A DNA stretch of 21,738 nt from a virus: positions 1 to 21,738 of IMG/VR virus record IMGVR_UViG_3300035204_001147; one strand, 5' to 3'. Position numbers and translations under genes: made by a program. Below are positions 8,222 to 21,738 of this stretch, one piece after another (the stretch's first letter is position 1; every line of letters starts with the position of its first letter). Under the pieces are notes generated by a model. It saw only the letters and a program-made list of their open reading frames with translations. It made no database searches and had not been told where the DNA came from.

Positions 8222-8589
8222 GACAGCAACCGCCTCTTCCATGCAGGGCTCGATAGATCAACGATGCAGGAGTCGTTCCCATCCATCGCGTGCAGCATCC
8301 GACCATTGCCGAGCACGATCCCGCAGTGACACTCAATCCCCATGACCCGGCACCATGCGACATCGAACTCGCAAGGCTCCGCGACCTTCGTCCACGCACT
8401 CACCTCCTGGCCGAAGGCTTCCGCGAACGATTCCGCGTCGGTGCTCGACTCGTAGCCTGCATAAGAGGGGAGCTTGATCCCAAGCTCGCGCCGATAGACC
8501 TGACGAACGAGGCCCCAGCAGTCGAGCGCATCCATCTCGCGCCCGTTGATCTCGTATGGAATCCCGATGTACTCGTTCGACCATGACAT
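8203..8589 (-). CDS. NlpC/P60-family tail-tip cysteine peptidase
   Basis: This is a 128-aa protein matching a minimal NlpC/P60 fold. The catalytic Cys is C24 in ALDCWGLVRQVYRRELGI, the classic DCWG helix start. The likely catalytic His is H88 in ECHCGIVLG, which begins the central strand; H100 (GRMLHAM) or a nearby polar residue may complete the triad. Lambda gpK combines a JAB domain with NlpC/P60; here only the peptidase part is present. In phage tails and gene transfer agents this enzyme sits just before the host-specificity protein and is thought to cut peptidoglycan stem peptides during DNA entry or to act in tip assembly. Its ATG overlaps the stop of the DUF1833 gene by one nucleotide (TGATG), and its end overlaps the J-like gene. 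Confidence 0.9.
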   Translation of the reverse strand: MSWSNEYIGIPYEINGREMDALDCWGLVRQVYRRELGIKLPSYAGYESSTDAESFAEAFGQEVSAWTKVAEPCEFDVAWCRVMGIECHCGIVLGNGRMLHAMDGNDSCIVDLSSPAWKRRLLSCYRMQ

Positions 8590-9481: not shown

Positions 9482-11706
9482 CAGATGCCATGCCTCCCAA
9501 CTCGATTCACGCCATACGAGTTGCGGATCGCCTGATCCACGTCGCCGCCGCGCGCGATGTTCTTCGAAATCGCCTTGCCGACCATCACCTCGATCGAGCG
9601 CGTCCCGTTGGGACCGTCGCGCTCCGTCGTCGTCGCCTCCTGGCCGGTGTTGTTGACGACGGTCACCGTCACGTCGTTACCGCCTCCTCCTGACATCTTC
9701 CCGAGCGACTGGTTCGTTGCGACGAAGCCAGAAGTGTGCGGGATGAACAACTCCGGGCCTCGCTCGCCAACCAATGTTGGGCCGCCAATCGGACCACCGT
9801 TGGCCGCCATTCCGCTAAACGGATTCCCACCCGTTGTATTGATCGCAAGATCGGGCTTCGCGGCACCTCCGAAAAGAGCGCCCAACGAATCAAACGCAGT
9901 GCCCGCGAGGCTTCCGATCGCGCGGTTCACGAACTCCCGAAGGAATGATTGCGCGAGTTCCTTGAACGTGATCTCGCCCGTGATGAGCATGTCCGTCATC
10001 GCGTCGGTGAATCCGTCACGGATGAACCCGAAGGATTCTTCGAATGCCTTGTTGCGCCTTTCTAGCGCACTCTCCATTGCACTCTCCATTGCGCCATCGG
10101 CATCGGCTTGAAGAGCGGCGATCTTCGCTTCTGTCGTCTTCTTCAGCAGTATGATGTTCTCTTCGTACTGCTTTTCAGAAATCTCCTTGTCATTTAACAA
10201 CTTCTTGTGGGCCGCAAGTTGTCTTTCTAACTCGATCCCAAGCAGCACCGTTTCAGACATCGTTGCTTCTTGAAAATCCTGAAGCACACCTGCATTGATT
10301 CGCTTGATCTTATCTGCCTGACGCCCTTCGAGCTTCAAGGCTCTATTTCTTGCCTCTTTTACCTCAAGTGCCTCTCTGTCATTAATCTCTTTTATGTCAA
10401 GCCGCATTTTTTCTCTGATTGCGGCTTTTGCTACCCTTAAGCCTCCGAGAGCTTCCAACTCTCCAGCAGATGCCTCTTGTAGTATCTGCATCTTCTTGTT
10501 CGCTTCATGCCAGATGTCCTCTCTCTCTGTTGCTCGCATTTTGCGAAGATCCTCAATTGCCTTCGCAGCGATCTTTCGACGCAAATCTGCCGCTTTCTTT
10601 TCAGCAGCAACATTTACAGGTGCGTCTCCACCAGAGATTTGCTTCGCAGCATCTGCTCGTGCCTTCTTTTTTTCCTCAATATGTTTCTTTAGATCAAGGA
10701 GTTCTTGCTTTCGTTCTTTGATCGTCCTTCTGTGAACAATGAGCATTGCATCAAATTCTTCATTGCCCGCAATAGCAAGAACTTCCTTTTTTCTGCGAGC
10801 GAGATCTTCCTCTGCTTGAGCGAGTTCTTTAGTTGCCTCACCCTGTCTGAGAATTGCATTACTCAATCCAAGATCAGCAGTATCCGCAAACGCTCGATAT
10901 AGCTTGTTCGCCCAAAACGCCGCTGCCGAAAGTTGTTCGCCAACTGCAACCAACGCACCACCACCTAGATCAACAAGCGCAGGAGTCAGTTGTGCGCTTG
11001 TCACTTTGGCTAACGCGGAAAGCGTGTCCTTCGTCTCGCTCGACTTTGCAATCACCTCGTCATCGAGAACGAGTCCCATCGCCTGCGCTTCATTGCGAAG
11101 TTCGCCGATGTTGCCTGCGAGATTGACTAAAGCCACTCCTTCAGAATCGAAGAGCTTGAAACCCAGACGCACCCGCTCAAGTGGACTCTCGATGTCAGAC
11201 AATGCCTTCATCGAATCCATGAACAGATTCTCTGTTGAGCGCAACGATCCGTTCGTGTCAGTGAGCTGAATGCCCAATTGCTTGAGAGCGCTGCGTGCTT
11301 CTCCAGTGCCTGCGGCAGCTTCAGCCGCTCGACGCCCGAACCGCTGCAAGCCCATATTCAGAGTCTCGACTTTGACCCCGCTCTGTACTGCTGCGTACTG
11401 AAATTCCTGCAACGCGGAATTCGAGATACCTAGCTTGTCGGATGTCTTGCCAATTGCATCTGCCGCAGCAAGAGAACCATCAATCAATTTCTTCATGCCG
11501 CCTAACGCAGCAATCTGAGCAAGACCAAAAGCAAGCAAACCGAGCTTGACGCGAATCGCACCGAGGCCCTTGAACGCACCTTGCATGTTGCGCGCAATGC
11601 GTTTGCCAGCAGTGTTCGCTCGACCTTCCGCCTTCGCGAGATCGGATTCTAGCTTCGTGATGTCTGCCCTGAGTTTTACCTCAAGGTCGCCAATTGTCTC
11701 AGCCAT
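9481..11706 (-). CDS. Tail tape measure protein
   Basis: This 741-residue protein sets tail length and is ejected ahead of the DNA. The N-terminus (MAETIGDLEVKLRADITKLE) is helical. A hydrophobic stretch follows at about 52-70 (VKLGLLAFGLAQIAALGGM), then GISNSALQEFQYAAVQSG, typical of tape measures. About 275-545 is a long, charged, heptad-like helical region rich in K, E and A. The C-terminal part has the classic FIRDGFTDAMTDMLITGEIT and FKELAQSFLREFVNRAIGSL segments, then NGGPIGGPTLVGERGPELFI. At the usual 1.5 angstrom per residue, the length predicts a tail of roughly 110 nm. The start overlaps the upstream chaperone frame by 8 nt. Base composition drops sharply in the middle of the gene. 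Confidence 0.95.
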   Translation of the reverse strand: MAETIGDLEVKLRADITKLESDLAKAEGRANTAGKRIARNMQGAFKGLGAIRVKLGLLAFGLAQIAALGGMKKLIDGSLAAADAIGKTSDKLGISNSALQEFQYAAVQSGVKVETLNMGLQRFGRRAAEAAAGTGEARSALKQLGIQLTDTNGSLRSTENLFMDSMKALSDIESPLERVRLGFKLFDSEGVALVNLAGNIGELRNEAQAMGLVLDDEVIAKSSETKDTLSALAKVTSAQLTPALVDLGGGALVAVGEQLSAAAFWANKLYRAFADTADLGLSNAILRQGEATKELAQAEEDLARRKKEVLAIAGNEEFDAMLIVHRRTIKERKQELLDLKKHIEEKKKARADAAKQISGGDAPVNVAAEKKAADLRRKIAAKAIEDLRKMRATEREDIWHEANKKMQILQEASAGELEALGGLRVAKAAIREKMRLDIKEINDREALEVKEARNRALKLEGRQADKIKRINAGVLQDFQEATMSETVLLGIELERQLAAHKKLLNDKEISEKQYEENIILLKKTTEAKIAALQADADGAMESAMESALERRNKAFEESFGFIRDGFTDAMTDMLITGEITFKELAQSFLREFVNRAIGSLAGTAFDSLGALFGGAAKPDLAINTTGGNPFSGMAANGGPIGGPTLVGERGPELFIPHTSGFVATNQSLGKMSGGGGNDVTVTVVNNTGQEATTTERDGPNGTRSIEVMVGKAISKNIARGGDVDQAIRNSYGVNRVGRHGI

Positions 11707-12007
11707 CTGAAGATGCTTCCTTACGAGACCCTTGCTCGCTATTGGAGATGAGTTCCTCGATCAAAGAGATGTTTTCTTCGTGCTCGATCCTTCTGGTCTC
11801 CGCCTCCTCTCCAGACAGAGCCCTCGATTCCTTGGGAGGATTGATCCAGTTTTCGTATCCAGGGAGCCTCTTCGTCCTTGAAAGAGACTCAGACCAGTAA
11901 GCAGACGCTCTCAAAAGCTGAAACTCCGAATCTCTTTTCTTTCCGTATGCAACAGAGAGGGAGTTCAACTCGGCAGGAGTCAAGCTCCAGAATTCATCGA
12001 ACTTCAA
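11699..12007 (-). CDS. Tail assembly chaperone, second frame (gpT-like part of a G-GT pair)
   Basis: The downstream frame has the diagnostic sequence KFDEFWSLTPAELNSLSVAYG at its start, a FW-x-LTP-x-EL motif shared with small chaperones of gene transfer agents and many siphoviruses. A charged helix with EEAETRRIEHEENISLIEEL follows. If translated alone it would have to begin at a TTG at 12007 with no good ribosome-binding site. However, the same frame is open upstream to 12103 and encodes ARDFAVVHLGLKFDEFW, which reads like the true beginning of the domain. It sits in the -1 frame relative to the preceding gene, so I interpret it mainly as the C-terminal part of a frameshift fusion. The 3' end overlaps the tape-measure start by 8 nt, as expected for a chaperone that coats the tape measure during assembly. 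Confidence 0.78.
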   Translation of the reverse strand: MKFDEFWSLTPAELNSLSVAYGKKRDSEFQLLRASAYWSESLSRTKRLPGYENWINPPKESRALSGEEAETRRIEHEENISLIEELISNSEQGSRKEASSDG

Positions 12008-12018
12008 TCCTAGATGGA

Positions 12019-12103
12019 CTACTGCAAAGTCTCTTGCTTCGATGAAGTCCCATTCTCTACTTCCTGCTTCGGAGGGTCCACGTCGTCGTCGCTTCCCCCG
12101 AAC
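12019..12103 (-). other. Probable -1 programmed ribosomal frameshift window joining the two chaperone frames
   Basis: The upstream chaperone frame ends at TAG (12019-12021). The -1 frame is open from 12103, just after a TGA at 12104-12106, so any slip must occur within this interval. The best-looking slippery candidate is the G-run in TTC GGG GGA AGC (12095-12099 plus the following bases). Other possible single-codon slips are CCC T within GAC CCT CCG, and TTT G near the stop. None is a perfect X XXY YYZ heptamer, so the site is not pinned down. The case rests on the protein-like sequence encoded by the -1 frame before any good start codon, and on the G-GT arrangement being conserved between tail tube and tape measure in lambda-like phages. 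Confidence 0.55.
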
Positions 12104-12420
12104 TCAGGATCGATCCTCCCCCAAAGAGCCAGATTTATTGCCTCGATCGCAGAGTTGTATGTCGGAAGCATCGGAAAAAAGAACTTCCTCACTTCTTCGA
12201 TTTTCAGATCCGGCTCCTCCCATAACCTGCCAGACCAAACGAGACAAACCAGAGTGTCGATGTCCAGTGAGGAGACCGCAGAAGGAATCATGCTCATTCC
12301 CTCCAGTCCCAATTCACTAATCAGACGCGAGAGAGCGCCCTGATCGAAGCGAAGAAACTTCTCCTCGCCATCGATCAGGACACTTACTCGCCCACGCAGT
12401 TGGTCAGCATTCATGCTCAT
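12019..12420 (-). CDS. Tail assembly chaperone, first frame (gpG / GTA gp10-like)
   Basis: The favoured start is ATG at 12420, which shares one base with the tail-tube stop (TAATG), giving MSMNADQLRGRVSVLIDGEE and 133 aa. A TTG 15 nt upstream lies next to GGAGG but would be too close to it. The sequence has a small beta domain, then ALSRLISELGLEGMSMIPSA, a helical stretch around IDTLVCLVWSGRLWEEPDLK, and an acidic, proline-containing tail (DDDVDPPKQEVENG). This matches the small tail-assembly chaperones that sit between tail tube and tape measure and recruit tube subunits to the tape measure. The protein is not expected in the mature virion. A minor fraction is probably extended by -1 frameshifting into the following frame. 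Confidence 0.82.
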   Translation of the reverse strand: MSMNADQLRGRVSVLIDGEEKFLRFDQGALSRLISELGLEGMSMIPSAVSSLDIDTLVCLVWSGRLWEEPDLKIEEVRKFFFPMLPTYNSAIEAINLALWGRIDPEFGGSDDDVDPPKQEVENGTSSKQETLQ

Positions 12421-12800
12421 TAAACGGCAGACCAACCTCCGCTCACCTGAAGAGTTACTTCCGATTCCGCCGGTCCATGCTCTGGAGCGGAAATCGACAT
12501 CGAACTGATGTATGACGTTGTGTTCGTCTTGAGATTGGTTCCACCTTCTGCCCAGAAGAGAGTGACAGCATTGTTGGCTTCGTATGCGGTTCGGATCGCG
12601 GCTTGTGCCGTATCGCCAACAACATAGAAGCTATTCAAGGTTACCGTGTCAGCACGCTTGCCTGGGATGAACACCGCATCGTCATCGCTCTTCGTCGAAA
12701 CGTCGAGCATCTCAGATGAACTGTCCATCGTCACGCCTCTCTGTGAACCAATCGTGTCTGTGCCGATCTTCATCAAGATCGTATTGCCATTGACTGCCAT
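12420..12800 (-). CDS. Major tail tube protein
   Basis: This 126-aa protein begins MAVNGNTILMKIGTDTIGSQ and continues with the layout of TP901-1/lambda gpV-like tube proteins: an initial strand pair, RGVTMDSSSEMLDVSTKSDD, the insertion loop FIPGKRADTVTLNSFYV, a helix AQAAIRTAYEANNAV, and closing strands containing YISSMSISAPEHGPAESEVT. Tube proteins form stacked hexameric rings around the tape measure. The gene has one of the two best ribosome-binding sites in the window: AGGAGG at 12810-12815, 9 nt before the ATG. That fits a subunit needed in hundreds of copies. Its stop overlaps the start of the chaperone gene. The family assignment is strong by pattern and position. Confidence 0.9.
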   Translation of the reverse strand: MAVNGNTILMKIGTDTIGSQRGVTMDSSSEMLDVSTKSDDDAVFIPGKRADTVTLNSFYVVGDTAQAAIRTAYEANNAVTLFWAEGGTNLKTNTTSYISSMSISAPEHGPAESEVTLQVSGGWSAV

Positions 12801-12824: not shown

Positions 12825-13229
12825 CTAACGGTCGAGAACCACTCTCGCCGTCAAAACCCTTCCGTAGAAATCTTCTGAATCGTTTAGAGCTGGACCACTC
12901 AAGCTAAGACCACTCATCGTCCAATCTGGAACAGAGAATGGTGCCCGCAATTTCTCCCTCAAATACTCCGAGATCTCCTCGATCACAACAGGGCTTCCAT
13001 CCTGCTCATCGAATACGGAGATGTCTTGAGTGATCTCCCTGACTGTTCTGTTCTTCGCTTCAAGGTTTACGTCTGCAATAGATACTGTAACGATGAACGG
13101 ATAAGTCGTATTTGTCGGAACAGGAAATGCGGAGAAAACCGCCGAGTGGCCCATGAAAGATCCGAGCTTTTCAGAAAGAACGGTGTCGTCTCGCAAGTAG
13201 TTCACGATCGCTCGACTCAAATCGATCAC
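12825..13229 (-). CDS. Tail terminator / tail completion protein (DUF3168-like)
   Basis: This 134-aa protein starts at a GTG that overlaps the previous stop as GTGA (VIDLSRAIVNYLRDD). The order is typical of DUF3168 and lambda gpU-like terminators: an N-terminal helix, a loop with AVFSAFPVPTNTTYPFIVTV, a long strand DVNLEAKNRTVREITQDISV, and a helix containing IEEISEYLREKLRAPF. It ends with a strand pair, SEDFYGRVLTARVVLDR. In siphoviruses this protein caps the tail tube once the tape-measure length is reached and provides the surface that binds the head connector. Its location between the gp10-like gene and the tail tube is the standard one. Confidence 0.87.
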   Translation of the reverse strand: MIDLSRAIVNYLRDDTVLSEKLGSFMGHSAVFSAFPVPTNTTYPFIVTVSIADVNLEAKNRTVREITQDISVFDEQDGSPVVIEEISEYLREKLRAPFSVPDWTMSGLSLSGPALNDSEDFYGRVLTARVVLDR

Positions 13230-13687
13230 GTCGTATGCCTTCTTCGGTCAGAGATCCCCTGTCGCTTGAAAATGTCGCGAGTCAGCATCTTGATCGCCTT
13301 CACTCTGTGCTTTTTCAGCACAGGTCGAAGGAACGGGCGTGGCGCGATTGTCGCCTTCCCACTCTTGCCTCCGTACTCAAGGACCTTCGCGTAATTCGTA
13401 CCGGCGCTGATGTAGACATCAACGTATCTCCTGCTCTTATCCACCCTGTGGTCTATGGATGCACGCAATCTCCCCGTGACCAACTTCGGCGGATCGCCTG
13501 GAGCCGAAGGGTCCAACCCTCGCATGGAGCCACTCGACATACGTTTCACTGGCTGACCAACAGAAAGCGACTTGACGACTTCGGACTCCAGCATTCTCGC
13601 AACACGCTCTGCGTTAACCTTGAGCCTCTTCGCAGCCATCTTTCCAATCGCCTTGCCGTTCCATGTGAGTTCCCAGTCATTGCTCAT
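13226..13687 (-). CDS. HK97 gp10-like neck / tail completion protein
   Basis: This 153-aa basic protein starts MSNDWELTWNGKAIGKMAAK, has a helix with NAERVARMLESEVVKSL, and then the family signature: PPKLVTGRLRASIDH, followed by YISAGTNYAKVLEYGGKS and APRPFLRPVLKKHR. The GTxYAxxLEYG and PRPFLRP motifs are hallmarks of the HK97 gp10 / minor-tail completion family, which joins the tail to the connector. The start ATG lies 11 nt inside the upstream gene, and the end overlaps the DUF3168 start as GTGA. The C-terminus is strongly basic (KRQGISDRRRHTT), perhaps a flexible tail. It is unlikely to be anything else, given motif and position. Confidence 0.9.
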   Translation of the reverse strand: MSNDWELTWNGKAIGKMAAKRLKVNAERVARMLESEVVKSLSVGQPVKRMSSGSMRGLDPSAPGDPPKLVTGRLRASIDHRVDKSRRYVDVYISAGTNYAKVLEYGGKSGKATIAPRPFLRPVLKKHRVKAIKMLTRDIFKRQGISDRRRHTT

Positions 13688-14009
13688 TGGTATTCACCTT
13701 GCAAACGAGCGAAGTGTGGTGATCGCTGATACTTGGAGTCTTGACTCCAATGACCGTGTAAATCTCTGAGCCATGATGAACTTCATCGTCGCGCTTAAAC
13801 TCTGTTCCGCTCAAGACGTAAATCATCGCATTTGCCTCGGACCATTCAGTAGGCCCAGAGGTAACATCCACCGGCATCGACTGCGAAATGCGACAAGCAT
13901 GATTGCCTGAAAACGTATTCAACGTGTAGTTGACGTTTCCCATTCCATCGTAATCAGGAATAGGTCGCTTCATGTCGGCAGTCGTGTTCAGGAGATGCTC
14001 GATTGTCAC
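13677..14009 (-). CDS. Head-closure / head-tail joining protein
   Basis: This is a small beta-rich protein of 110 aa when started at the GTG at 14009, which overlaps the adaptor stop as GTGA and has GGAG about 9 nt upstream. A TTG at 14015 would add two residues but lies only 3 nt from GGAG. The sequence has HLLNTTADMKRPIPDYDGMG, then ACRISQSMPVDV and AMIYVLSGTEFKRDDEV, and ends with a strand around YTVIGVKTPSISD. This is the usual layout of SPP1 gp16 / HK97 gp7-like stoppers, small beta-barrels that seal the portal after packaging. The identity rests on size, fold-like pattern and location between the adaptor and the gp10-like gene. Confidence 0.78.
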   Translation of the reverse strand: MTIEHLLNTTADMKRPIPDYDGMGNVNYTLNTFSGNHACRISQSMPVDVTSGPTEWSEANAMIYVLSGTEFKRDDEVHHGSEIYTVIGVKTPSISDHHTSLVCKVNTNEQ

Positions 14010-15247
14010 CAGCAAGGTCTCCGGTATGGGTCAAGAATTGATTTTGCAACTGCGGGAATCACCCTCGAAGCCTCCCCGATAGCAATCGTCTTCGAGTAGT
14101 CCCCGATGCTTTCGCTCTGAATACCAGTGCTGGAACCGTCTCTGATAGCGCGAGCAGTCTCTAGAACTGCCATCTTGATTGACTCTGGGATTCGGGCAGT
14201 GCCGTCGCAGATCCTGACGTAATCAAGCATGTACAAGGCACCGTTGGGATCACTCGCGCCCAAGTTCCAGAGCTGGAGACTGATCTGCGTGATCGTCTGG
14301 TCGATCCAACTGCGCGCCGGATCTTGCATCTGCTTATCCATGTCTGATGCCTGATTGAAACCCATATCAGCAACAAGTGTCGCGTAACCAGTGTGATCCG
14401 AATTCAGAGACGATGCTCGAATTCGATCCGGCAAGAAATTCTGCTCGCCACGTTGAGACTTCTTCCCCGTGAAGCCCGTCCTGCCATCACCATCGAGCCA
14501 TCCAACGCGATAGCAGGCGTAGCCCGTCGTCGAGGCTTCGATCAGGTTGAGCCGCGTCACGATGAACGGAAAGTCGCCGCCATCGAACGAGAGCGAGGGA
14601 GAAAGCAAGCGCTCGTCACTCACGCTACCGCCAGTCTCGTAGTGAATGCCTTCGGTCTGGCTCGTCGGCTGAGGGCCGAGCAGATACGCACCTGCTGCGT
14701 TGGTCGTCGTCACCGTGCCATCGACAAAACCCCAGGAGAGCCGGTCGGCGGCATCGTCCCAGGTGTCAGAGGAGTTATTCCGATACCACTCCCAGGCGTA
14801 TGCGGTATTCCCAGCACACCAGCCGGTGCGGTAAGTGACGCGGTATTGAACGCCACGCCGGAAGACGAAATCCAGCCCCGAAGACGTTTTCCCGCCAACG
14901 CACCACCCTCGAAACTCAGGGCTGAAAACGTATTCGAAAGTCGGAGTTTTCGACGAAATATCATCACTCACTTCGTCGTTTGTCTGCTCGAACCCCTTCA
15001 CGTTGTAAGCGATAGATTCAATGCCGGTGACATAGCCGCCGCTCACTTCAAGCGTGGTCCTGTCTCTGACGGGTGTGATCCTTTCGCTTACGGTGTGCTC
15101 CTGAAGAGCGCTCCCTCGTCGATCGTAATGGATGGACAGATACGAAGAAACGAGCGCTTCTGCAATGTCGATCGAAGCCTGCGCTCTCGTTGGAACTGTT
15201 GAAACTCCAAGGAATTCAGCCAGTTCATCTTTGCGAACAATGCTCAT
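14006..15247 (-). CDS. Head-tail connector (adaptor, HK97 gp6-like) with a large inserted beta domain
   Basis: The outer parts match a head-tail adaptor. Residues 1-40 (MSIVRKDELAEFLGVST, then QASIDIAEALVSSYL) are the paired N-terminal helices. Strands follow to about 145 (TTLEVSGGYVTGIESIAYNV, YRVTYRTGW), and 350-413 hold the closing helices (IPESIKMAVLETARAIRDG, IPAVAKSILDPYRR). Adaptors are usually about 100-200 residues; this one has 413. The excess is a continuous block at about 146-349 with W-rich and strand-rich sequence, including PFIVTRLNLIEASTTGYACY, GYATLVADMGF and ALYMLDYVRICDG. It resembles a beta-sandwich (jelly-roll-like) domain and also resembles a segment of the tail-tip J-like protein. 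Adaptors form a 12- or 13-mer ring under the portal, so this domain would project around the neck. The start ATG has AAGG upstream. Confidence 0.87.
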   Translation of the reverse strand: MSIVRKDELAEFLGVSTVPTRAQASIDIAEALVSSYLSIHYDRRGSALQEHTVSERITPVRDRTTLEVSGGYVTGIESIAYNVKGFEQTNDEVSDDISSKTPTFEYVFSPEFRGWCVGGKTSSGLDFVFRRGVQYRVTYRTGWCAGNTAYAWEWYRNNSSDTWDDAADRLSWGFVDGTVTTTNAAGAYLLGPQPTSQTEGIHYETGGSVSDERLLSPSLSFDGGDFPFIVTRLNLIEASTTGYACYRVGWLDGDGRTGFTGKKSQRGEQNFLPDRIRASSLNSDHTGYATLVADMGFNQASDMDKQMQDPARSWIDQTITQISLQLWNLGASDPNGALYMLDYVRICDGTARIPESIKMAVLETARAIRDGSSTGIQSESIGDYSKTIAIGEASRVIPAVAKSILDPYRRPCW

Positions 15248-15297
15248 CGCATCTTTACCTTACAGGCTTTCAGGAAAGTGACTACTAACGGAAAGCG

Positions 15298-15330
15298 CCC
15301 TACCACCCCACCTTGCGCGGGGTGGTAGGG
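15298..15330 (-). terminator. 12-bp GC-rich hairpin, possible weak or partial terminator after the capsid gene
   Basis: The stem CCCTACCACCCC / GGGGTGGTAGGG is perfect with a 9-nt loop (GCGCAAGGT). It is followed on the transcribed strand by CGCTTTCCG, which has only three consecutive U residues, so it is not a classic intrinsic terminator. A partial terminator or RNA-processing stem behind a major capsid gene is common, because it lets capsid mRNA accumulate above the genes that follow. Confidence 0.4.
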
Positions 15331-15418
15331 GCGAGAGTCCATGCAAGGGCATTCTTTGAGCTTGTCTTCGCCCCCACGGCAAGAACAAAGCGTTTTCTTC
15401 CCAATACATGGACTCTCG
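15298..15418 (-). ncRNA. Candidate structured RNA element between capsid and adaptor genes
   Basis: On the transcribed strand the first helix pairs CGAGAGUCCAUG (15418-15407) with CAUGGACUCUCG (15343-15332), 12 perfect pairs closing a 63-nt interior. Inside it CUUUG and CAAAG can pair, and a nested hairpin CUUGCC with GGCgAAG is possible. One nucleotide after the first helix begins a second: CCCUACCACCCC (15330-15319) pairs with GGGGUGGUAGGG (15309-15298) over a 9-nt loop. Two uninterrupted 12-bp helices side by side are far more than chance in 120 nt. The element occupies the only sizeable gap in the operon, directly after the capsid stop. The likely roles are tuning downstream expression, mRNA stability or processing, or a separate small RNA. 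Pairing is seen directly; function is inferred. Confidence 0.5.
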
Positions 15419-15425
15419 GCTTCCA

Positions 15426-16637
15426 CTATTCGAGACCCGACGCGATGGTGTGACCACGCGCGACCACGCCGCCGAACTTGTACTCGTAGTCGAAGCGCAT
15501 CGAGACGGTCAGTTCGACTTGCCGCTTGCGCGGGTTCCAGTCGAGTTCCTGAGTCACGTCACGATGAACACCGAAGACGAGATTCGACGCGGGCGTCATG
15601 TAGATCTTGTCCGCGTCGAGGTGACGATCGACCGTGATCGGAATCCCGAAGTACGAGAGCCCGGTCGATCCGCCGACGAGAGTCTGGTCGCCCAGCATCG
15701 TGGCCCGATCGCCCAGCTCACCCATGTACGCAGTCGCGAAGCCCGGAGAAGCGAAGATCCGCTGATCCGAGATGGTGCGATACTGCGAAGACATGCCCTT
15801 GTACAGAGCATTCAGGGTGGCGAGTGCGGTCGAGTTCGAGGTGTTGTCCACGTCCGTCACCGCACTGTCTTCATCGGTTACGAACAGATCCTCGAATCCG
15901 TTGTTGATCGCGATCCACGCCGTCGCGGAGTCGTCGTCACCGTTCCAAGCCATATCGTTCAGCTCTTCACCGATAGCCTTCGCAACTACGTTTGCGATGG
16001 TTGCTTCGGCGTTCGACCCTGCGATGTTGTCTTCGAGGAAGCTCAGGCTGATGTCCTCGGCCCAGATAGCCTCAGTCACTGACAGAGAATGCTTCCCGAA
16101 GGTGATCGCATCGGTGTCGGAAGGAGCGGTATTCTCCGTCGCCGCGACGAGCTTGCGCGAACCCACCCCGATGCGGTCGAGCCGCGCCGTGGGCGAGTTC
16201 ATCACGCGCTTCTCGATCACCGAAAGCGTCGGCTGATCTCCGACCACGAAGTCGAGGAACGCGCTCGCCGTCTCCGATCGGAGCTTACCTGCCGAAGCGA
16301 TTGACGAGAGATCCACCGCACGAGTGTTGCCGTGCAGCAGTTCGTTCCTCACTGCGTCGATGTCCTTGAAGATGAAACCCTCGAACGGGTCGCTGCTCTT
16401 CTCGGTTGCGGCAATCAAGCCACCATTGACTTGAGCCAGACGAAGCTGCTCGTTCATCTCTTCGAGCTTCTGCTCTCCGTCGATGAGTCGCTTCTCCAAG
16501 TCCGACACTGCTTCGTCCGTTGGCGAACTGTCACGCTCCTCCAACGATGCCAATCGCTCCTTGATCGGAGTGATCTGTTCTTCGGTGAAAGTACGGATGT
16601 CCGCCTTCACCTCTTCTACTGCGTTTTCCAGTTCCAT
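15426..16637 (-). CDS. Major capsid protein, HK97 fold
   Basis: This 403-aa protein begins with a charged coiled coil (residues about 1-70, for example EEVKADIRTFTEEQITPIKE and SDLEKRLIDGEQKLEEMNEQ), equivalent to the HK97 delta domain. That domain acts as an internal scaffold and is cut off by the prohead protease, probably somewhere between residues 70 and 115. The remainder has HK97 features: FLDFVVGDQPTLSVIEKRVM, then SLSVTEAIWAEDISLSFLED (N-arm and E-loop region), the spine helix ANVVAKAIGEELNDMAWNGD, and a P-domain and A-domain ending RQVELTVSMRFDYEYKFGGV. No separate scaffold gene is present. Its ribosome-binding site, AGGAGG at 16645-16650 with 7-nt spacing, is the best in the window, consistent with high expression. 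Confidence 0.94.
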   Translation of the reverse strand: MELENAVEEVKADIRTFTEEQITPIKERLASLEERDSSPTDEAVSDLEKRLIDGEQKLEEMNEQLRLAQVNGGLIAATEKSSDPFEGFIFKDIDAVRNELLHGNTRAVDLSSIASAGKLRSETASAFLDFVVGDQPTLSVIEKRVMNSPTARLDRIGVGSRKLVAATENTAPSDTDAITFGKHSLSVTEAIWAEDISLSFLEDNIAGSNAEATIANVVAKAIGEELNDMAWNGDDDSATAWIAINNGFEDLFVTDEDSAVTDVDNTSNSTALATLNALYKGMSSQYRTISDQRIFASPGFATAYMGELGDRATMLGDQTLVGGSTGLSYFGIPITVDRHLDADKIYMTPASNLVFGVHRDVTQELDWNPRKRQVELTVSMRFDYEYKFGGVVARGHTIASGLE

Positions 16638-16644
16638 CGAGGAA

Positions 16645-16650
16645 CCTCCT
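16645..16650 (-). promoter_or_regulatory. Strong Shine-Dalgarno of the capsid gene
   Basis: A perfect AGGAGG lies 7 nt before the capsid ATG and overlaps the TAG stop of the protease gene (16649-16651). Most other genes here depend on overlap coupling and weak sites, so this marks the capsid gene for strong independent initiation. Confidence 0.75.
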
Positions 16651-17263
16651 ACGAGTTCGGCCCCAACTCAGTACGGATACGTTCCATACCCAGTATCGAC
16701 CGTATTCTGTCTCGCAGTCCCTCGGAATCTGCATCCTCTTCGGATGGAGAAGGATCTTGTGAGATTTCCGGCAACTGCATCGATCGCATGATCGCGACCG
16801 CTGCCGGATTCGACGGAACGGGAACGAGACTCACCTCGACCAACTCCGTGCGTTCGTAGACAGGGACCTCGTCCCCGTCGATAGATCGTGTCGTAACACT
16901 TGCCGGGTCTGGAATGAATCCAACAGACACGGCAGACAGAAAGCCAGAACGAACAAGGTCACGAGCCATCTCTGCCCTTTCATGGCTTGCCCAACGAACA
17001 CCGACATCGAACTCTGTGTCTGTCGTCTTGAAATCCACAACGCGACCGAGCACGTTCTCAAGATCGGGAGGAGAGTGACCTCCATATGCGTCATGTCCCC
17101 ACATGAAGATCGGATTGTGACTGAAGTTCACTGTGTCGATTCCGCGCGGCTCAACGATGGTCCCGTGCCGATCGAGTTCATTCGTCGATGCGCGAAACCA
17201 TGAGATGTCGCTTTCACCATCCTCTGAATGGGATCTGGCAGTGGATACGAATCGTTCTTTCAT
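16649..17263 (-). CDS. Prohead protease (HK97 gp4-like, peptidase U35)
   Basis: This is a serine protease that matures the procapsid by removing the capsid delta domain. I start it at the ATG at 17263, which overlaps the portal stop as ATGA and follows AAAGGAAAAA; a frame extension to 17302 has no support. The 204-aa product has the family signature: FRASTNELDRHGTIVEPRGI, then NPIFMWGHD with catalytic His57, then a strand FDVGVRWASHERAEMARDLV, and SGFLSAVSVGFIPDP with catalytic Ser113. It closes with ELVEVSLVPVPSNPAAV, which is typical. The C-terminal 60 residues are acidic and helical (SPSEEDADSEGLRDRIRS) and may be autoprocessed. Its place between portal and capsid is standard. Confidence 0.93.
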   Translation of the reverse strand: MKERFVSTARSHSEDGESDISWFRASTNELDRHGTIVEPRGIDTVNFSHNPIFMWGHDAYGGHSPPDLENVLGRVVDFKTTDTEFDVGVRWASHERAEMARDLVRSGFLSAVSVGFIPDPASVTTRSIDGDEVPVYERTELVEVSLVPVPSNPAAVAIMRSMQLPEISQDPSPSEEDADSEGLRDRIRSILGMERIRTELGPNS

Positions 17264-19443
17264 CGGTTTTTCCTTTCGCCTATCGCGAACGTCAATACGC
17301 AACGGCAGTTCACAACATTGCCTGCCCCACCCCGCTGATCTAATGGGTGCATCATTCTCATTCCGCCGACAATGAAATGCTCTTCCTGCAAGACCGATCT
17401 ACGACTTTCTCCGTTCGGCCCTTTGATTGCTGAAGCCCTGTGCTCTTCTCTTGTCCTCTCGTCCTGCGTTGGAACCCATGTCTTCACAGTGACGAACTCT
17501 GGATTCTCCTGATCGAACTTCGATGCGTTGGTGAACTTCCCAAAGTTGTACGAACGAGCAGTCTCGGTGCGTGCGATCGTATCTGCGCGAACGCCCTTCC
17601 AATCATCAAATGCCTTGGTCAAGCGAGCGGCAATCTGAGGAATGCTCAAGGACTCATCCAGCGCTTCGGAAAGAATCTCCCTCACTGCTTCTTTCGACAC
17701 CTCAGTGATCTTCGTGATCTCTTCAGCGGAATTCGTTGCAGCCCATTGCCGGATTTCGTCCGCGATCGTCTCGAACTCAACAAGCATGTCTGCGGAGACC
17801 AGCGCAGAACTCGCAGCCTCTCTATCGAACGCATCGAATCCGATCCCGAAGGTCGCGAAAGCCTCTTTCTCCAACACCTCCCTGAACTCCTCAGAGAACC
17901 CATCAAGAATCTGCTCGATGTCTTCCTTTATCGGTGCGCGTGTCTGCGTCTTCTTCGCGCCCCGCTTCACCTCTGCAACAATCGCCTTCTGCATCTTCGA
18001 GAAGATCGCTCGAATTCGGCCCTTCAGCCTTCTCTCCGCGTCTCCCTGGTCGGACAGGAAACGGAATGCAGCAATCTGCATTGCCTCATCACTCGGGTCT
18101 TTGATGAGCGCTTCCTGAATATCTTCGGAAAGCGACCTCTCCTCGCCGACTTCCTCTCCTGAGTCTTTGCTCGTTTCCGATGGAGCGTTCACGCTATCCA
18201 CAAAAGACGATGCTTCGTTCGGATCTTCGACAACGGATGATCCCAGCGGAATGAAGTAGACAGAGCCCCTCCCGCTTGGATCAGGATCAAATCCAATCCG
18301 CTCTCGGTATTCATCCATCGTGATAGCGCCTGCCTTGAAAGCAGTCTCCGCTGCGATCCGATCGAACTCCTTGTCACCGACATCAACTGAGTCGAACTCG
18401 AATGAATATTGAGACGGATCGATTCCGAGCCTGGGCAGGACTCGATGAGTAATCGGCTCTTCGTATCTCTTCAGCCTGGGGCCAAGACAAAGAGAAGTGT
18501 AGACGCGATCCGCCTCCTCCCCGTTTGCTCTACTCGAATCCTCAACAAGACCTAGCTTCGTCGCAGGAACATGGAACGCAGACAGAAGTTGATCGCGACT
18601 AACTCTCGCAAGGTTCAAGAATTCCAGATCCCTGATGTGAGCCGAGAGCGTCTGAAACTGCGCGCCCTTCCCGAGCACCTGAATCCTGCTCTCCCCTTGA
18701 TGGAAGTCTTGCCAGTTGTCCGAAATCACATTCGCTTGATCCCGAGTCAACTCAGCTTCAGTTGTCAGGATGCCGGTCGGCTGCGCGTGGTTGCGAAGAT
18801 GGCTCGCCGCGTAAGCGCGCGAATAGGTATCCATGTCGTGAGACATTGCGACTGCACGAATCGGAGACATTCCACCATGAGGTTCGATCGGGTCCGGGTA
18901 TCGAAACAAGACGACATCTTCAGCAGGAAGAATCTTCTTGTTCGAGCCAGCAGTGTTCAGTTCCCATCCGACAACTCTGGTCTTCGACTTGTCGTAGATC
19001 GCCCTCGAAACCCAGTCAGGATTCAAGTTCTGAATTCCAATGACCTTGCCGCCGCCCGATTCTTGATTCGTAATCAGATGCCAGAATGATCTTCCCGCTA
19101 GATCCAAATGAATCTGCGTTAATTCAATCAGGTCGCCCCATGTCGTTGCTTCTGAAGGTCGTCTCAGAACATGGGGTATCTGCGAATCATCAAGCGCCTT
19201 CCAATCATCTTTCGAAAACCCAACACGCTGATAGATCTTCCAAGAAGAAGATCGGACATCTTGACTGATCGTCGAAACACATGCGTAGACCCAGCCTGAA
19301 TATGTCTTCAGCGCGTCACTGTCTGTCTTGATCGGATCGGTGTCGTAGGTCTCGTGACCCAGCAAGCGGGCGAGAGAGTATGTCGAACTTGTTCCTGGCT
19401 GCGGCACCTGGAGCCCGCGCTTGACTATCTCACTGACCCTCAT
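17260..19443 (-). CDS. Portal protein fused to a MuF-type head morphogenesis domain
   Basis: This 727-aa product has two parts. Residues about 1-410 are an HK97-family portal: SGWVYACVSTISQDVRSSSW, HVLRRPSEATTWGDLIELTQ, the DVVLFRYPDPIEPHGGMSPI clip region, and FLNLARVSRDQLLSAFHVPA. A polar linker (about 410-450) follows. About 470-727 resembles the MuF / SPP1 gp7 C-terminal domain: a helical part, then DTIARTETARSYNFGKFTNA, WVPTQDERTREEHRA near 657-671, and GGAGNVVNCRCVLTF at the end with the family VNCRC motif. Portals and MuF proteins are usually separate genes; fusions are known but less common. The portal forms the DNA-entry dodecamer, and MuF proteins are minor head components. The start overlaps TerL as ATGA, and the end overlaps the protease as ATGA. 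Confidence 0.93.
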   Translation of the reverse strand: MRVSEIVKRGLQVPQPGTSSTYSLARLLGHETYDTDPIKTDSDALKTYSGWVYACVSTISQDVRSSSWKIYQRVGFSKDDWKALDDSQIPHVLRRPSEATTWGDLIELTQIHLDLAGRSFWHLITNQESGGGKVIGIQNLNPDWVSRAIYDKSKTRVVGWELNTAGSNKKILPAEDVVLFRYPDPIEPHGGMSPIRAVAMSHDMDTYSRAYAASHLRNHAQPTGILTTEAELTRDQANVISDNWQDFHQGESRIQVLGKGAQFQTLSAHIRDLEFLNLARVSRDQLLSAFHVPATKLGLVEDSSRANGEEADRVYTSLCLGPRLKRYEEPITHRVLPRLGIDPSQYSFEFDSVDVGDKEFDRIAAETAFKAGAITMDEYRERIGFDPDPSGRGSVYFIPLGSSVVEDPNEASSFVDSVNAPSETSKDSGEEVGEERSLSEDIQEALIKDPSDEAMQIAAFRFLSDQGDAERRLKGRIRAIFSKMQKAIVAEVKRGAKKTQTRAPIKEDIEQILDGFSEEFREVLEKEAFATFGIGFDAFDREAASSALVSADMLVEFETIADEIRQWAATNSAEEITKITEVSKEAVREILSEALDESLSIPQIAARLTKAFDDWKGVRADTIARTETARSYNFGKFTNASKFDQENPEFVTVKTWVPTQDERTREEHRASAIKGPNGESRRSVLQEEHFIVGGMRMMHPLDQRGGAGNVVNCRCVLTFAIGERKNR

Positions 19444-20708
19444 AGAAAGATTTGCGCCCCTCGGTCTTGAGTGAGTTCGGTCGCTGCCCAGATGAACGCA
19501 TCTGCGGAATCTGGAGAACCGTCTGATTCGTATCCTTCCGGCGTAAACGCAGCGAGCTGGGACTCAAGCTCATCCATGCCCTTCATCGTATGCGCCTTGC
19601 CTTGCTCGAACATCGCCAGGATGGGCTCCGCTCTCACATGCTTACCGCGTGTCGCATGGACCAACTTAATTGGAACGTCCGCGTCCAGACTGCGAATCGT
19701 ATGCTCGACCATCAACCCGCCCTGATTGCGCTCTGCGACAATCAGATCAGCCTTGAACTCGTGAAATACATCCACCACTCGACGAGCCCAACCAGCAGGA
19801 CCGGAGCGGCAAGAACGATCTGCCAACGTATACAAATGACCATTCACCCCACGAGAAGCCACCACGATCCCAGTCTGGTCTGCGCTGTCACCTGTCGTTA
19901 CCGCTGGATCAACGCCAACAACAATTCGTTGCGGCTCGTCCGCTTCATCAACGCGAAGATCGACCAGTTGATCGAGACTTAAGATCGCGCCTTCTACGTC
20001 TTCCAAAACTTCCGCGTAGATCTCTTGCCGACCCATCCTCGTTCCGTCGTATTTCTTCAGAATCGCATCGAGGAATTGGGGGGCCAGATTGGCCTTGTTG
20101 TCATACGTGGAGCCTCGCGTAACGACCGTCGAAGGGTTATCCACGAGGTTTTTTATCAGTCGAGTAGGACGAGGCGTCGTCGTAATCATCGCGCGCGGAT
20201 TCGCACCTATACGCAACGCGAACATCGCCATGTCCCAGGTCTCGCTATGCGTCCATGCGGCTAACTCATCGGCCAGCATCAAATCGCAATTCACTCCGCG
20301 TAGACGATCAGGCTCCTCCGCAGAATAAAGAGAAACCGTCGCCCCACTGTCCCACGTCAAACGACGCTTGCTCGGCTCGTACAACGGACAGTCCCAAGGT
20401 GGACACACACTCAAAAAACCAGATGGACCGTCCACAATCGTGTCGCGACAATCCGCCGAAGTCGGAGCGACCACAATCGCTCGACGACTCTCCCCGCCCT
20501 CAATCTGACGACGAACCCACTCCACACCAGCGCGAGTCTTGCCGAATCCTCGACCAGCCAAAACCAACCAATATCGATGATCCCCGTCTGGCTCCATCTG
20601 GTTCGGTCGAGCCCAGATGTCCCACAGGTATCTAGCCTGTGCCTGAGCCGCCTCAGAAGCCCCCTCAAGAGACTTTCTGAATTCTTCGACCTGAACCAAA
20701 GGCTTCAC
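19440..20708 (-). CDS. terL: Terminase large subunit
   Basis: This is the DNA-packaging motor ATPase and headful or cos nuclease. The start is GTG at 20708, in a GTGA overlap with the upstream gene. The 422-aa protein has Walker A AGRGFGKT at 51-58, Walker B LMLADE at 143-148 with D147 and E148, and the coupling motif MITTTPRP at 174-181. The RNase H-like nuclease domain shows acidic residues D267 (VVGVDPAV), E326 (VAERNQGG) and D403 (SADAFIWAATEL). These make it a complete, apparently active enzyme. The length and motif spelling resemble the Terminase_6 / gene-transfer-agent type large subunits, by memory of the family. It docks on the portal encoded next. Confidence 0.95.
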   Translation of the reverse strand: MKPLVQVEEFRKSLEGASEAAQAQARYLWDIWARPNQMEPDGDHRYWLVLAGRGFGKTRAGVEWVRRQIEGGESRRAIVVAPTSADCRDTIVDGPSGFLSVCPPWDCPLYEPSKRRLTWDSGATVSLYSAEEPDRLRGVNCDLMLADELAAWTHSETWDMAMFALRIGANPRAMITTTPRPTRLIKNLVDNPSTVVTRGSTYDNKANLAPQFLDAILKKYDGTRMGRQEIYAEVLEDVEGAILSLDQLVDLRVDEADEPQRIVVGVDPAVTTGDSADQTGIVVASRGVNGHLYTLADRSCRSGPAGWARRVVDVFHEFKADLIVAERNQGGLMVEHTIRSLDADVPIKLVHATRGKHVRAEPILAMFEQGKAHTMKGMDELESQLAAFTPEGYESDGSPDSADAFIWAATELTQDRGAQIFL

Positions 20709-21058
20709 TCAAGGTCTTCCTTAGAGCGCTCCAGAAGCTCCTCAAGCTCTTTCGCCGCCTCGCGCATCTCGTGGTTCAAATCAAGATCTCCAGCCACCTC
20801 GTGCTTCGAAACCTCGGGCCAAGCCCGTTTGATGTAATGGCTGAAATCTTCCTTATTTTTCTGTTTCAAAAGACGGTCAACGTACAACTTCGCAAGCAAC
20901 TCGCGCTTGATGATCCCCATCTTCTGAATCTCTTCGTCAAGAGCAGACTCAACCAACTCCTGGAAGCTCTTCTTCTTCGGGCGACCCTTCGGATTTCCGC
21001 TCTGACCCTTCTTCCACATCTGCTTCCGAAAGCCTTCTGGCAGCTCTGATTTCGCCAA
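20705..21058 (-). CDS. DUF5681-domain protein, probable terminase small subunit
   Basis: This 117-aa basic-then-acidic protein has the DUF5681 signature WKKGQSGNPKGRPKKKSFQE at residues 15-34, a conserved basic element typical of small phage proteins encoded directly before the large terminase. A helix with ALDEEIQKMGIIKRELLAKL and a C-terminal coiled region (EMREAAKELEELLERSKEDL) that could oligomerise follow. By position and architecture it is the likely DNA-recognition subunit of the terminase. The start is TTG at 21058 with GGGGAA about 8 nt upstream; an in-frame stop lies just before, so no longer start exists. The stop overlaps the large-subunit GTG. No direct proof of DNA binding is visible beyond the basic motif. 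Confidence 0.82.
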   Translation of the reverse strand: MAKSELPEGFRKQMWKKGQSGNPKGRPKKKSFQELVESALDEEIQKMGIIKRELLAKLYVDRLLKQKNKEDFSHYIKRAWPEVSKHEVAGDLDLNHEMREAAKELEELLERSKEDLE

Positions 21059-21222
21059 TTTTCAAATTCCCCACAAGACCTGCGTGCTTTACGCCTGTAA
21101 AAACACGGTGAGTTTGCGTTAAATCCCGGTAGCGTCAAGGCTGGGGTAAAGGGATTCCTCCGGGGGGAAAAGCACTCTGGGCGAAGACACCCGTGAGTGG
21201 TAGCGCCTACGCCTATTCTGGT

Positions 21223-21376
21223 GGCGCAGTTGGTTCGCTGCGCCTAATTGGGTTGCGCCAAATTCGGTGGCGTGTCGCTTTCCCCACCGCAGCGGATTTA
21301 CTGCGCGCAAACGAATGTTGCGCCATTGCGGGTCCCGGCGCATAGCTCGGAACGCGCACGCGGGGATGGGTGCGCC
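21223..21376. repeat. Cluster of TGCGCC / GGCGCA motifs, candidate terminase or regulator binding sites
   Basis: TGCGCC occurs at 21239, 21254, 21319 and 21371, and its complement GGCGCA at 21223 and 21337: six copies in 154 nt. The copies at 21252-21260 and 21317-21325 share the longer GTTGCGCCA. The pair GGCGCAG (21223-21229) and CTGCGCC (21238-21244) forms a perfect 7-bp inverted repeat with an 8-nt loop. Repeated short motifs beside the terminase genes are what a terminase-binding region would look like, but no protein is shown to bind. Confidence 0.5.
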
Positions 21377-21426
21377 GCCTATCGGCGCGCGGCATATCCA
21401 GTCGGACCGAGCCAGTAGGCGCGTGT

Positions 21427-21468
21427 GGGGGGCGTAGGGGGGCGTAGGGGGCGGTCTCGTGGGGGGGG
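21427..21468 (+). repeat. G-run array with two GGGGGGCGTA units, G-quadruplex candidate
   Basis: Four runs of 6, 6, 5 and 8 guanines are separated by CGTA, CGTA and CGGTCTCGT. The first two units are identical 10-mers (21427-21436 and 21437-21446). This fits a quadruplex-forming motif with short loops. The C-rich stretch at 21489-21521 can alternatively pair with it, for example GCGTAGGG with CCCTACGC at 21501-21508. Confidence 0.55.
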
Positions 21469-21477
21469 CGTGAGTGT

Positions 21478-21492
21478 GGGAGCCGTGCTCCC
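21478..21492. repeat. Perfect 6-bp hairpin GGGAGC-CGT-GCTCCC
   Basis: A tight GC-rich inverted repeat with a 3-nt loop lies directly after the G-run array. It has no adjacent T-run on either strand, so it does not look like an intrinsic terminator. It may be part of a packaging or regulatory site. Confidence 0.4.
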
Positions 21493-21600
21493 CCTCGCCA
21501 CCCTACGCGCGTCCCGCCCCCAAAAACGAAAGAAAATCCGATCTCACCTCACGTAACCCCCCAAAACTACCGAAAAGACGGTAAGATGCGGACGCGTCAC

Positions 21601-21620
21601 TCGAGCGAATTCTCGTTCGA
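21601..21620. repeat. Inverted repeat upstream of the divergent membrane-protein gene, operator or leader hairpin
   Basis: TCGAGCGA and TCGTTCGA flank ATTC; seven of eight positions pair, and the eighth is a G-T. It ends 18 nt before the ATG at 21639, so it could be an operator for a dimeric repressor or a hairpin in the 5' leader. Confidence 0.35.
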
Positions 21621-21638
21621 TCACAACGAAGGGAAACA

Positions 21639-21738
21639 ATGACAGAGCCCAATTTCTTCCAAGCGTTCATTCTGTTCTGGAGCGTGTTGCTCGCGTTCGC
21701 AGGAGCTTGTACGGCGATCGGGTGGGCTATCACAGAAT
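21639..21738 (+). CDS. Small membrane protein, partial (C-terminus outside window), divergently transcribed
   Basis: An ATG at 21639 preceded by GAAGGGAAACA (a good ribosome-binding site) opens a frame that is still open at the window end. The visible 33 residues begin MTEPNFFQAFILFWSVLLAF and continue through AGACTAIGWAITE, a single hydrophobic helix at about residues 8-29. It is the only gene on the plus strand that I can support, and is transcribed away from the terminase genes. It may be the first gene of a separate operon. A small phage membrane protein of this kind could belong to lysis, superinfection exclusion or simply be uncharacterised; the fragment is too short to decide. Confidence 0.65.
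   Translation, partial: MTEPNFFQAFILFWSVLLAFAGACTAIGWAITE

Follow-up and report, generated by a model that had tools for sequence, protein, structure and literature searches.

A conserved RNA structure lies directly after the major capsid gene of this virus, and on the comparative evidence it is one of a pair, the other member being a covarying hairpin after the tail-tube gene. The window, meaning the whole stretch of DNA analysed, comprises 21,738 nucleotides; it comes from a group of uncultured tailed phages, and its relatives are contigs labelled L002, L007, and so on. The two sites are very probably gene-boundary expression elements of some kind.

Since the minus strand carries all virion genes of the window, the RNA has the long-range helix P1 first and then, one base (C) later, the hairpin P2. 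The gene upstream of the site is that of the major capsid protein (15426..16637, minus strand; stop TAG at 15428-15426), a bulk gene whose product matches phrog_1623 virion structural protein (E 1.6e-55) and has hits annotated as major capsid protein. After the capsid stop, the 5' arm of P1, CGAGAGUCCAUG (15407..15418), pairs with its 3' arm, CAUGGACUCUCG (15332..15343), across a 63-nt interior with weaker inner pairing (15344..15406). P2 consists of the 5' arm CCCUACCACCCC (15319..15330), the 9-nt loop GCGCAAGGU (15310..15318), in which two further closing pairs are predicted, and the 3' arm GGGGUGGUAGGG (15298..15309), followed by the tail CGCUUUCCGUUA; all of these features are on the minus strand. 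The initial annotation had proposed two adjacent perfect 12-bp helices with additional pairing in the interior. Both inverted repeats (15298-15309/15319-15330 and 15332-15343/15407-15418) are indeed perfect over 12 bp and 1 base apart, and the interior pairings that it named exist in the predicted fold. Across the whole window they are the only 100%-complementary pairs of at least 12 bases within 200 bp, and a scan of the site's own virus record finds it in single copy.

Predicted folding energies single out both sites. The post-capsid fold reaches -82.8 kcal/mol against -56.4 +/- 4.3 kcal/mol in dinucleotide shuffles (z -6.1, 0/200 as low), and after G+C correction it is the most extreme 150-nt window on both strands of the 21.7-kb record. 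The tail-tube hairpin site is the second strongest fold of the window. Background tiles of window coding sequence (n = 98) have a synonymous-shuffle z of -0.54 +/- 1.24, and their minimum, z -4.3, is the tail-tube site itself. In 11/11 loci scanned, the top coding-strand fold is found at the post-capsid or post-tail-tube site; the exceptions lie further down the ranking, with a third site between the two in L016 and the post-capsid site outside the top five folds in L022. The third strongest structured stretch of the window, 3851-4038, near the 3' end of a J-like tail gene (3716-8242), is strong on both strands and has a synonymous-shuffle z of -4.0.

The site had been described as a large gap, but the premise that it is untranslated is not supported. 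The 178 nt between the capsid and adaptor genes are fully covered by a 60-codon ORF (15244..15426, minus strand) that contains both P1 and P2; its GTG start overlaps the capsid stop (TAGTG) and its TGA stop overlaps the adaptor start (ATGA). The product is a small Cys-rich protein (CxC...CxC), and ten relatives (L002, L007, L009, L011, L013, L014, L016, L017, L022, and L046; capsid identity 45-80%) have a counterpart of 62-71 aa at the same junction with Cys motifs, mostly CxC...CxC. In-frame stops occur in 0/11 of these ORFs, the single ORF-frame stop counted in L009 being upstream of its ORF start, and the other forward frames usually contain one to five. The small ORF is under mild purifying selection: in nine diverged pairs its own frame gives a pN/pS of 0.40-0.70, against values mostly near 1 for the other frames (the L016/L017 pair, with four differences only, is uninformative). 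Among relatives its frame relative to the capsid gene is 0, 1, or 2, and each copy has its own start codon, so translation of this protein starts independently and does not come about by frameshifting. Extension of the capsid protein by programmed frameshifting or readthrough was rejected as a candidate, given that the downstream ORF keeps no fixed frame among relatives.

Neither Pfam nor PHROGs assigns a family to the window protein or to any of six relatives, barring one PHROG match (L030, E 0.13). In L030, a more distant relative, a 70-aa zinc-ribbon-like protein (CPCC...CxxxxxxCxxCxC) is encoded upstream of 1276, before the adaptor gene; the gene preceding it is not recognisably a capsid gene, and no obvious post-capsid hairpins are seen. 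The downstream gene of the window (14006..15247, minus strand) carries a head-tail adaptor domain (phrog_442, E 4.1e-08, residues 351-412). Its Shine-Dalgarno-like sequence AAGGTAAAG (15253..15261, minus strand), read directly and aligned in relatives, lies within the small ORF, and the conserved C-terminus VK[MT]R of the small protein at least partly represents this Shine-Dalgarno sequence.

A lack of compensatory changes in relatives was among the refuting conditions of the initial annotation, and the outcome supports the structure: compensatory changes are found, and paired changes exceed the controls. Free folding of seven relatives gives a P1 stem with inner pairing and then P2 directly. 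In the close group (the window, L007, and L011), 20/20 tested P1/P2 pairs form in all three sequences (100% of 60 cells), against 45-52% paired when the partner is slid by 1-3 columns; six pairs are changed on both sides, a number equalled by 1/500 shuffles. Only the first eight P1 pairs are counted here because a bulge shifts the inner part of P1 in L007 and L011. In the second group (L002, L013, L016, L017, and L046), P2 and the loop helix together are 99% paired and contain six double-changed pairs (equalled by 0/500 shuffles). A search for the best short-loop hairpin places P2 at a similar offset in 11/11 lineages, with 14-20 bp including G-U (the window P2 is counted as 12 bp, and the range quoted for P2 stems is 12-20 bp). 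The stem sequence is mostly different among the 11 contigs, and per lineage 0-7 of 60 synonymous shuffles are as good.

The fold of the whole ORF beats synonymous shuffles in 11/11 lineages (z -2.5 to -6.2). When codons are redrawn from each capsid gene, seven lineages show a clear excess (z -2.4 to -4.5), L022 and L002 a weak one, and L013 and L046 none. P1 alone, as a long-loop helix, exceeds synonymous shuffles in the window, L007, and L014; it stays within them in seven other lineages, which makes P2 the firm part of the structure, and in L011 the search chose a different helix. Of the stem cells tested, 63 are G-U and 4 are A-C, a strong asymmetry from which it follows that selection acts on the sense RNA. 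Judged by these comparisons, the fold is conserved in its own right, beyond the ORF. A covariance model (R1) built from the three close sequences recovers those and L010, and reaches L009 (E 0.0046) and, weakly, L022 (E 0.23) in the right place; the remaining relatives are missed because their stems share little sequence. A scan of genome contigs for prophages or hosts found no relative.

Outgroups L020 and L019 (capsid identity 60-62%) lack the small Cys-rich ORF and keep a hairpin. L020 has a 20-bp hairpin in which a single 1x1 mismatch flanks the main stem joint on either side (z -5.4), and L019 has a 12-bp UUCG hairpin (z -3.0), followed by GUUUCC; both are non-coding and lie between the capsid stop and the likely start of the next gene. 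Since these outgroups keep the post-capsid hairpin without the ORF, the structure is tied to the 3' side of the capsid gene, and among the lineages compared the hairpin is more constant than the small ORF. Directly after the capsid gene, L020 (after 3940) and L019 (1513-2034) carry instead a signal-peptide-like, secreted-looking gene.

The view of the initial annotation that the site is unique in its operon gives way to a second conserved hairpin. The second bulk gene, that of the major tail (tube) protein (12420..12800, minus strand; phrog_1407 major tail protein, E 8.1e-09), is followed by a 23-bp hairpin (12334..12384, minus strand) within the next ORF (12019..12420, minus strand; ATGAGC start in TAATG, homologues in relatives), at about codons 13-29. 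By position, this ORF probably encodes a tail assembly chaperone. The hairpin is present in the window and in 10/10 relatives whose junction was read; over the 11 sequences, 96% of 253 cells pair, 5/23 pairs are changed on both sides (equalled by 1/500 shuffles), and the covariation score is above all shuffles. The protein is also conserved here, so part of the invariance of this hairpin is due to coding. The ORF 12019-12420 is followed by a second one, in the -1 frame, that runs as far as the tape-measure gene (together 11699-12420, minus strand). This is how genes are arranged at a programmed frameshift of the lambda G/GT type; no slippery site was found.

The candidate undescribed RNA element of the initial annotation is supported as a structured RNA that Rfam does not contain. 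With the Rfam models, Mu-gpT-DE (RF03012) included, nothing in the window reaches the gathering score, and relaxing the threshold to E 10 yields at the site only a chance miRNA match (12.9 bits against 80 needed). Mu-gpT-DE is, by its name, a structured element downstream of the phage capsid gene gpT, but it does not match the window site even at this relaxed threshold. No described phage element of this kind was found in the literature searched, which covers few subscription journals.

Hairpins directly after the major capsid gene and directly after the major tail gene, both present here, have analogues at one or both positions in HK97, T7, SPP1, and Corndog. HK97 carries a putative terminator behind each of these two bulk genes, at 5192-5213 following the major head gene and at 7443-7462 following the major tail gene. 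The first, GGGCGGGGAAACCCGCCCTTTT, has a T-run, whereas the second lacks one, like the elements of the window; the HK97 stems are about 8 bp, lie in short untranslated gaps with no small ORF, and are annotated only as putative. In T7, the annotated terminator Tphi follows gene 10 (capsid), as the hairpin does here, and lowers downstream expression; it differs in being a T7 RNA polymerase terminator with a U-run and a single stem in an untranslated gap. In SPP1, a rho-independent terminator is predicted where capsid gene 13 ends; gene 14 (58 aa, function not known) and then adaptor gene 15 come next (PMC6316719). SPP1 thus shares a hairpin after the capsid gene and a gene of about 60 aa before the adaptor, gene 14 and the window ORF being likened by size and position, but its hairpin is a canonical U-tract terminator before, not inside, the small gene. 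In the cluster O mycobacteriophage Corndog, a 12-bp stem-loop follows the major tail subunit gene, as in the window; TTTCT comes after it, it is read as a terminator, and none is reported after the capsid gene (PMC4351075). From these four phages, hairpins at this position are a known theme and have mostly been interpreted as terminators. The window and its relatives depart from that theme in the longer stems, the coding RNA, the mostly missing U-tract, the two-stem layout, and the covariation evidence.

Elevated folding after the capsid gene is also found in phiC31, Coruscant, and DLP_5. Lambda has no marked 120-nt fold after E or V, with a 7-bp UUCG hairpin after E. In phiC31 (L063), a helix GGAGCGCG...CGCGCTCC at about 7984-8047 occupies the first codons of gp40, directly after the tail-tube gene. 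Hairpins within coding sequence after tail-tube genes may be wider than this clade.

The analysis establishes the folds together with their position, covariation, and strand, whereas their effect on expression is inferred. From their position, the stems might lower the expression of downstream genes, and the place of the first structure after the capsid gene fits a role in the capsid-to-neck ratio or in the protection of capsid mRNA. The best explanation, to which we give somewhat better than even credence, is that the hairpins raise the output of the bulk genes over the downstream low-copy genes post-transcriptionally, via stabilisation or processing of mRNA 3' ends. After the capsid and tail-tube genes, the late mRNA would fold into long G+C-rich hairpins. 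The long operon transcript would decay or be cut from the downstream side, and the hairpin would either block 3'-to-5' exonucleases or itself be cut by an RNase III-type enzyme. An mRNA with the whole capsid (or tail-tube) gene would then survive, and the downstream part would be lost. Now and then, ribosomes re-initiating on the overlapping small ORF would melt the hairpins and supply the adaptor gene, the Shine-Dalgarno sequence of which is located within the small ORF. The hairpins behind the abundant cistrons of puf (Rhodobacter) and in malE-malF (REP) block 3'-to-5' decay and thereby give segmental mRNA stability. The phage elements are proposed to work alike; the bacterial hairpins are unrelated by sequence and sit in untranslated gaps.

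Three properties favour such stabilisation or processing: the position 3' of a bulk gene, the lack of a U-tract, and the indifference to whether the stem is coding or not. The long perfect double-stranded stems expected of RNase III sites are present (P2 12-20 bp, tail-tube hairpin 23 bp), so the stems are candidates for RNase III-type processing. Several points pull the other way. The hairpins are in translated ORFs, where ribosomes would open the stems; the shuffle controls for P1 alone and for capsid codon usage are uneven among lineages; part of the invariance of the tail-tube hairpin stems from the protein that it encodes; and the corresponding hairpins of HK97 and SPP1 resemble terminators.

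These last hairpins, together with those of T7 and Corndog, all of them annotated or predicted terminators, speak for an unlikely alternative, partial termination: a fraction of RNA polymerases would stop at P2, and likewise at the hairpin after the tail-tube gene, as they do at Tphi of T7, and transcription would step down after each bulk gene. The sense RNA does have a G+C-rich hairpin, three to four U occur shortly after P2 in the window and L007, and GUUUCC comes after the L019 hairpin. However, the tail without a U-run reported in the initial annotation is real, and the terminator scan is negative there. A U-tract directly after the stem is absent from the site and not conserved in the tails of 11 lineages, most of which have none after P2, and none follows the tail-tube hairpin. 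Moreover, an intrinsic terminator does not need a covarying P1 with a 63-nt interior, and the stems are longer than it requires. Quite unlikely, too, is a translational brake, in which the stems would slow or block ribosomes entering the small ORF and adaptor gene as well as the gene after the tail-tube gene, so that fewer neck and chaperone proteins are made. In the window, 9 nt of the small ORF precede P1, which is close enough for an initiating ribosome to meet it, and the TAGTG and ATGA overlaps suggest coupled translation, but some 36 nt of ORF precede the tail-tube hairpin, which places it past the usual initiation zone, the L020 and L019 hairpins lie upstream of the next gene's start without covering it, and elongating ribosomes usually melt such stems. 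Termination and a translational brake both fit less well than a block to 3' exonucleases or cutting of the RNase III type, although the three cannot be told apart from sequence data.

It is very improbable that the structure acts by more than its stability, as a binding or processing site for a protein of the phage or host, or that it gives rise to a separate small RNA. The P2 loop GGGUGGUUCC is common to L002/L013/L016/L017 and L046, two well separated lineages, despite differences at several stem pairs, a hint that the loop has a role of its own or forms a small inner helix; the same loop is missing in the window, L007, L009, L014, and L022. A scan with the sigma-70 consensus finds no promoter-like site in 13000-21738, and nothing points to the free-standing RNA suggested in the initial annotation. 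Least probable of all, and hardly to be expected, is that the stems are a by-product of coding or a DNA-level palindrome and not a selected RNA structure. In its favour, the main clade does use the region as coding sequence, and the peptide encoded by the tail-tube hairpin is conserved; yet synonymous shuffles destroy the fold, the stems stay paired where the peptide differs, G-U cells prevail over A-C cells, and the outgroup hairpins are non-coding.

Stabilisation or processing of the bulk-gene mRNA might be generalised further. Tentatively, and with more doubt than confidence, the elements could form a clade-wide class of coding-embedded sense-mRNA boundary elements without U-tracts, positioned by selection behind both bulk virion genes, that set virion-protein stoichiometry post-transcriptionally and not through termination, with the small Cys-rich, zinc-ribbon-like ORF, translated across the first element, as the valve. 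Tailed phages make hundreds of capsid and tail-tube subunits and about a dozen neck proteins from one long operon, and this copy-number difference has so far mostly been explained case by case. Here, two covarying structures mark both boundaries where output must fall, without a terminator U-tract and down to 45% capsid identity. The defined stems and paired mutations in them could separate termination, mRNA processing, and translation. Structure conservation can also be read inside phage coding sequence that is annotated as empty or as an ordinary small ORF.
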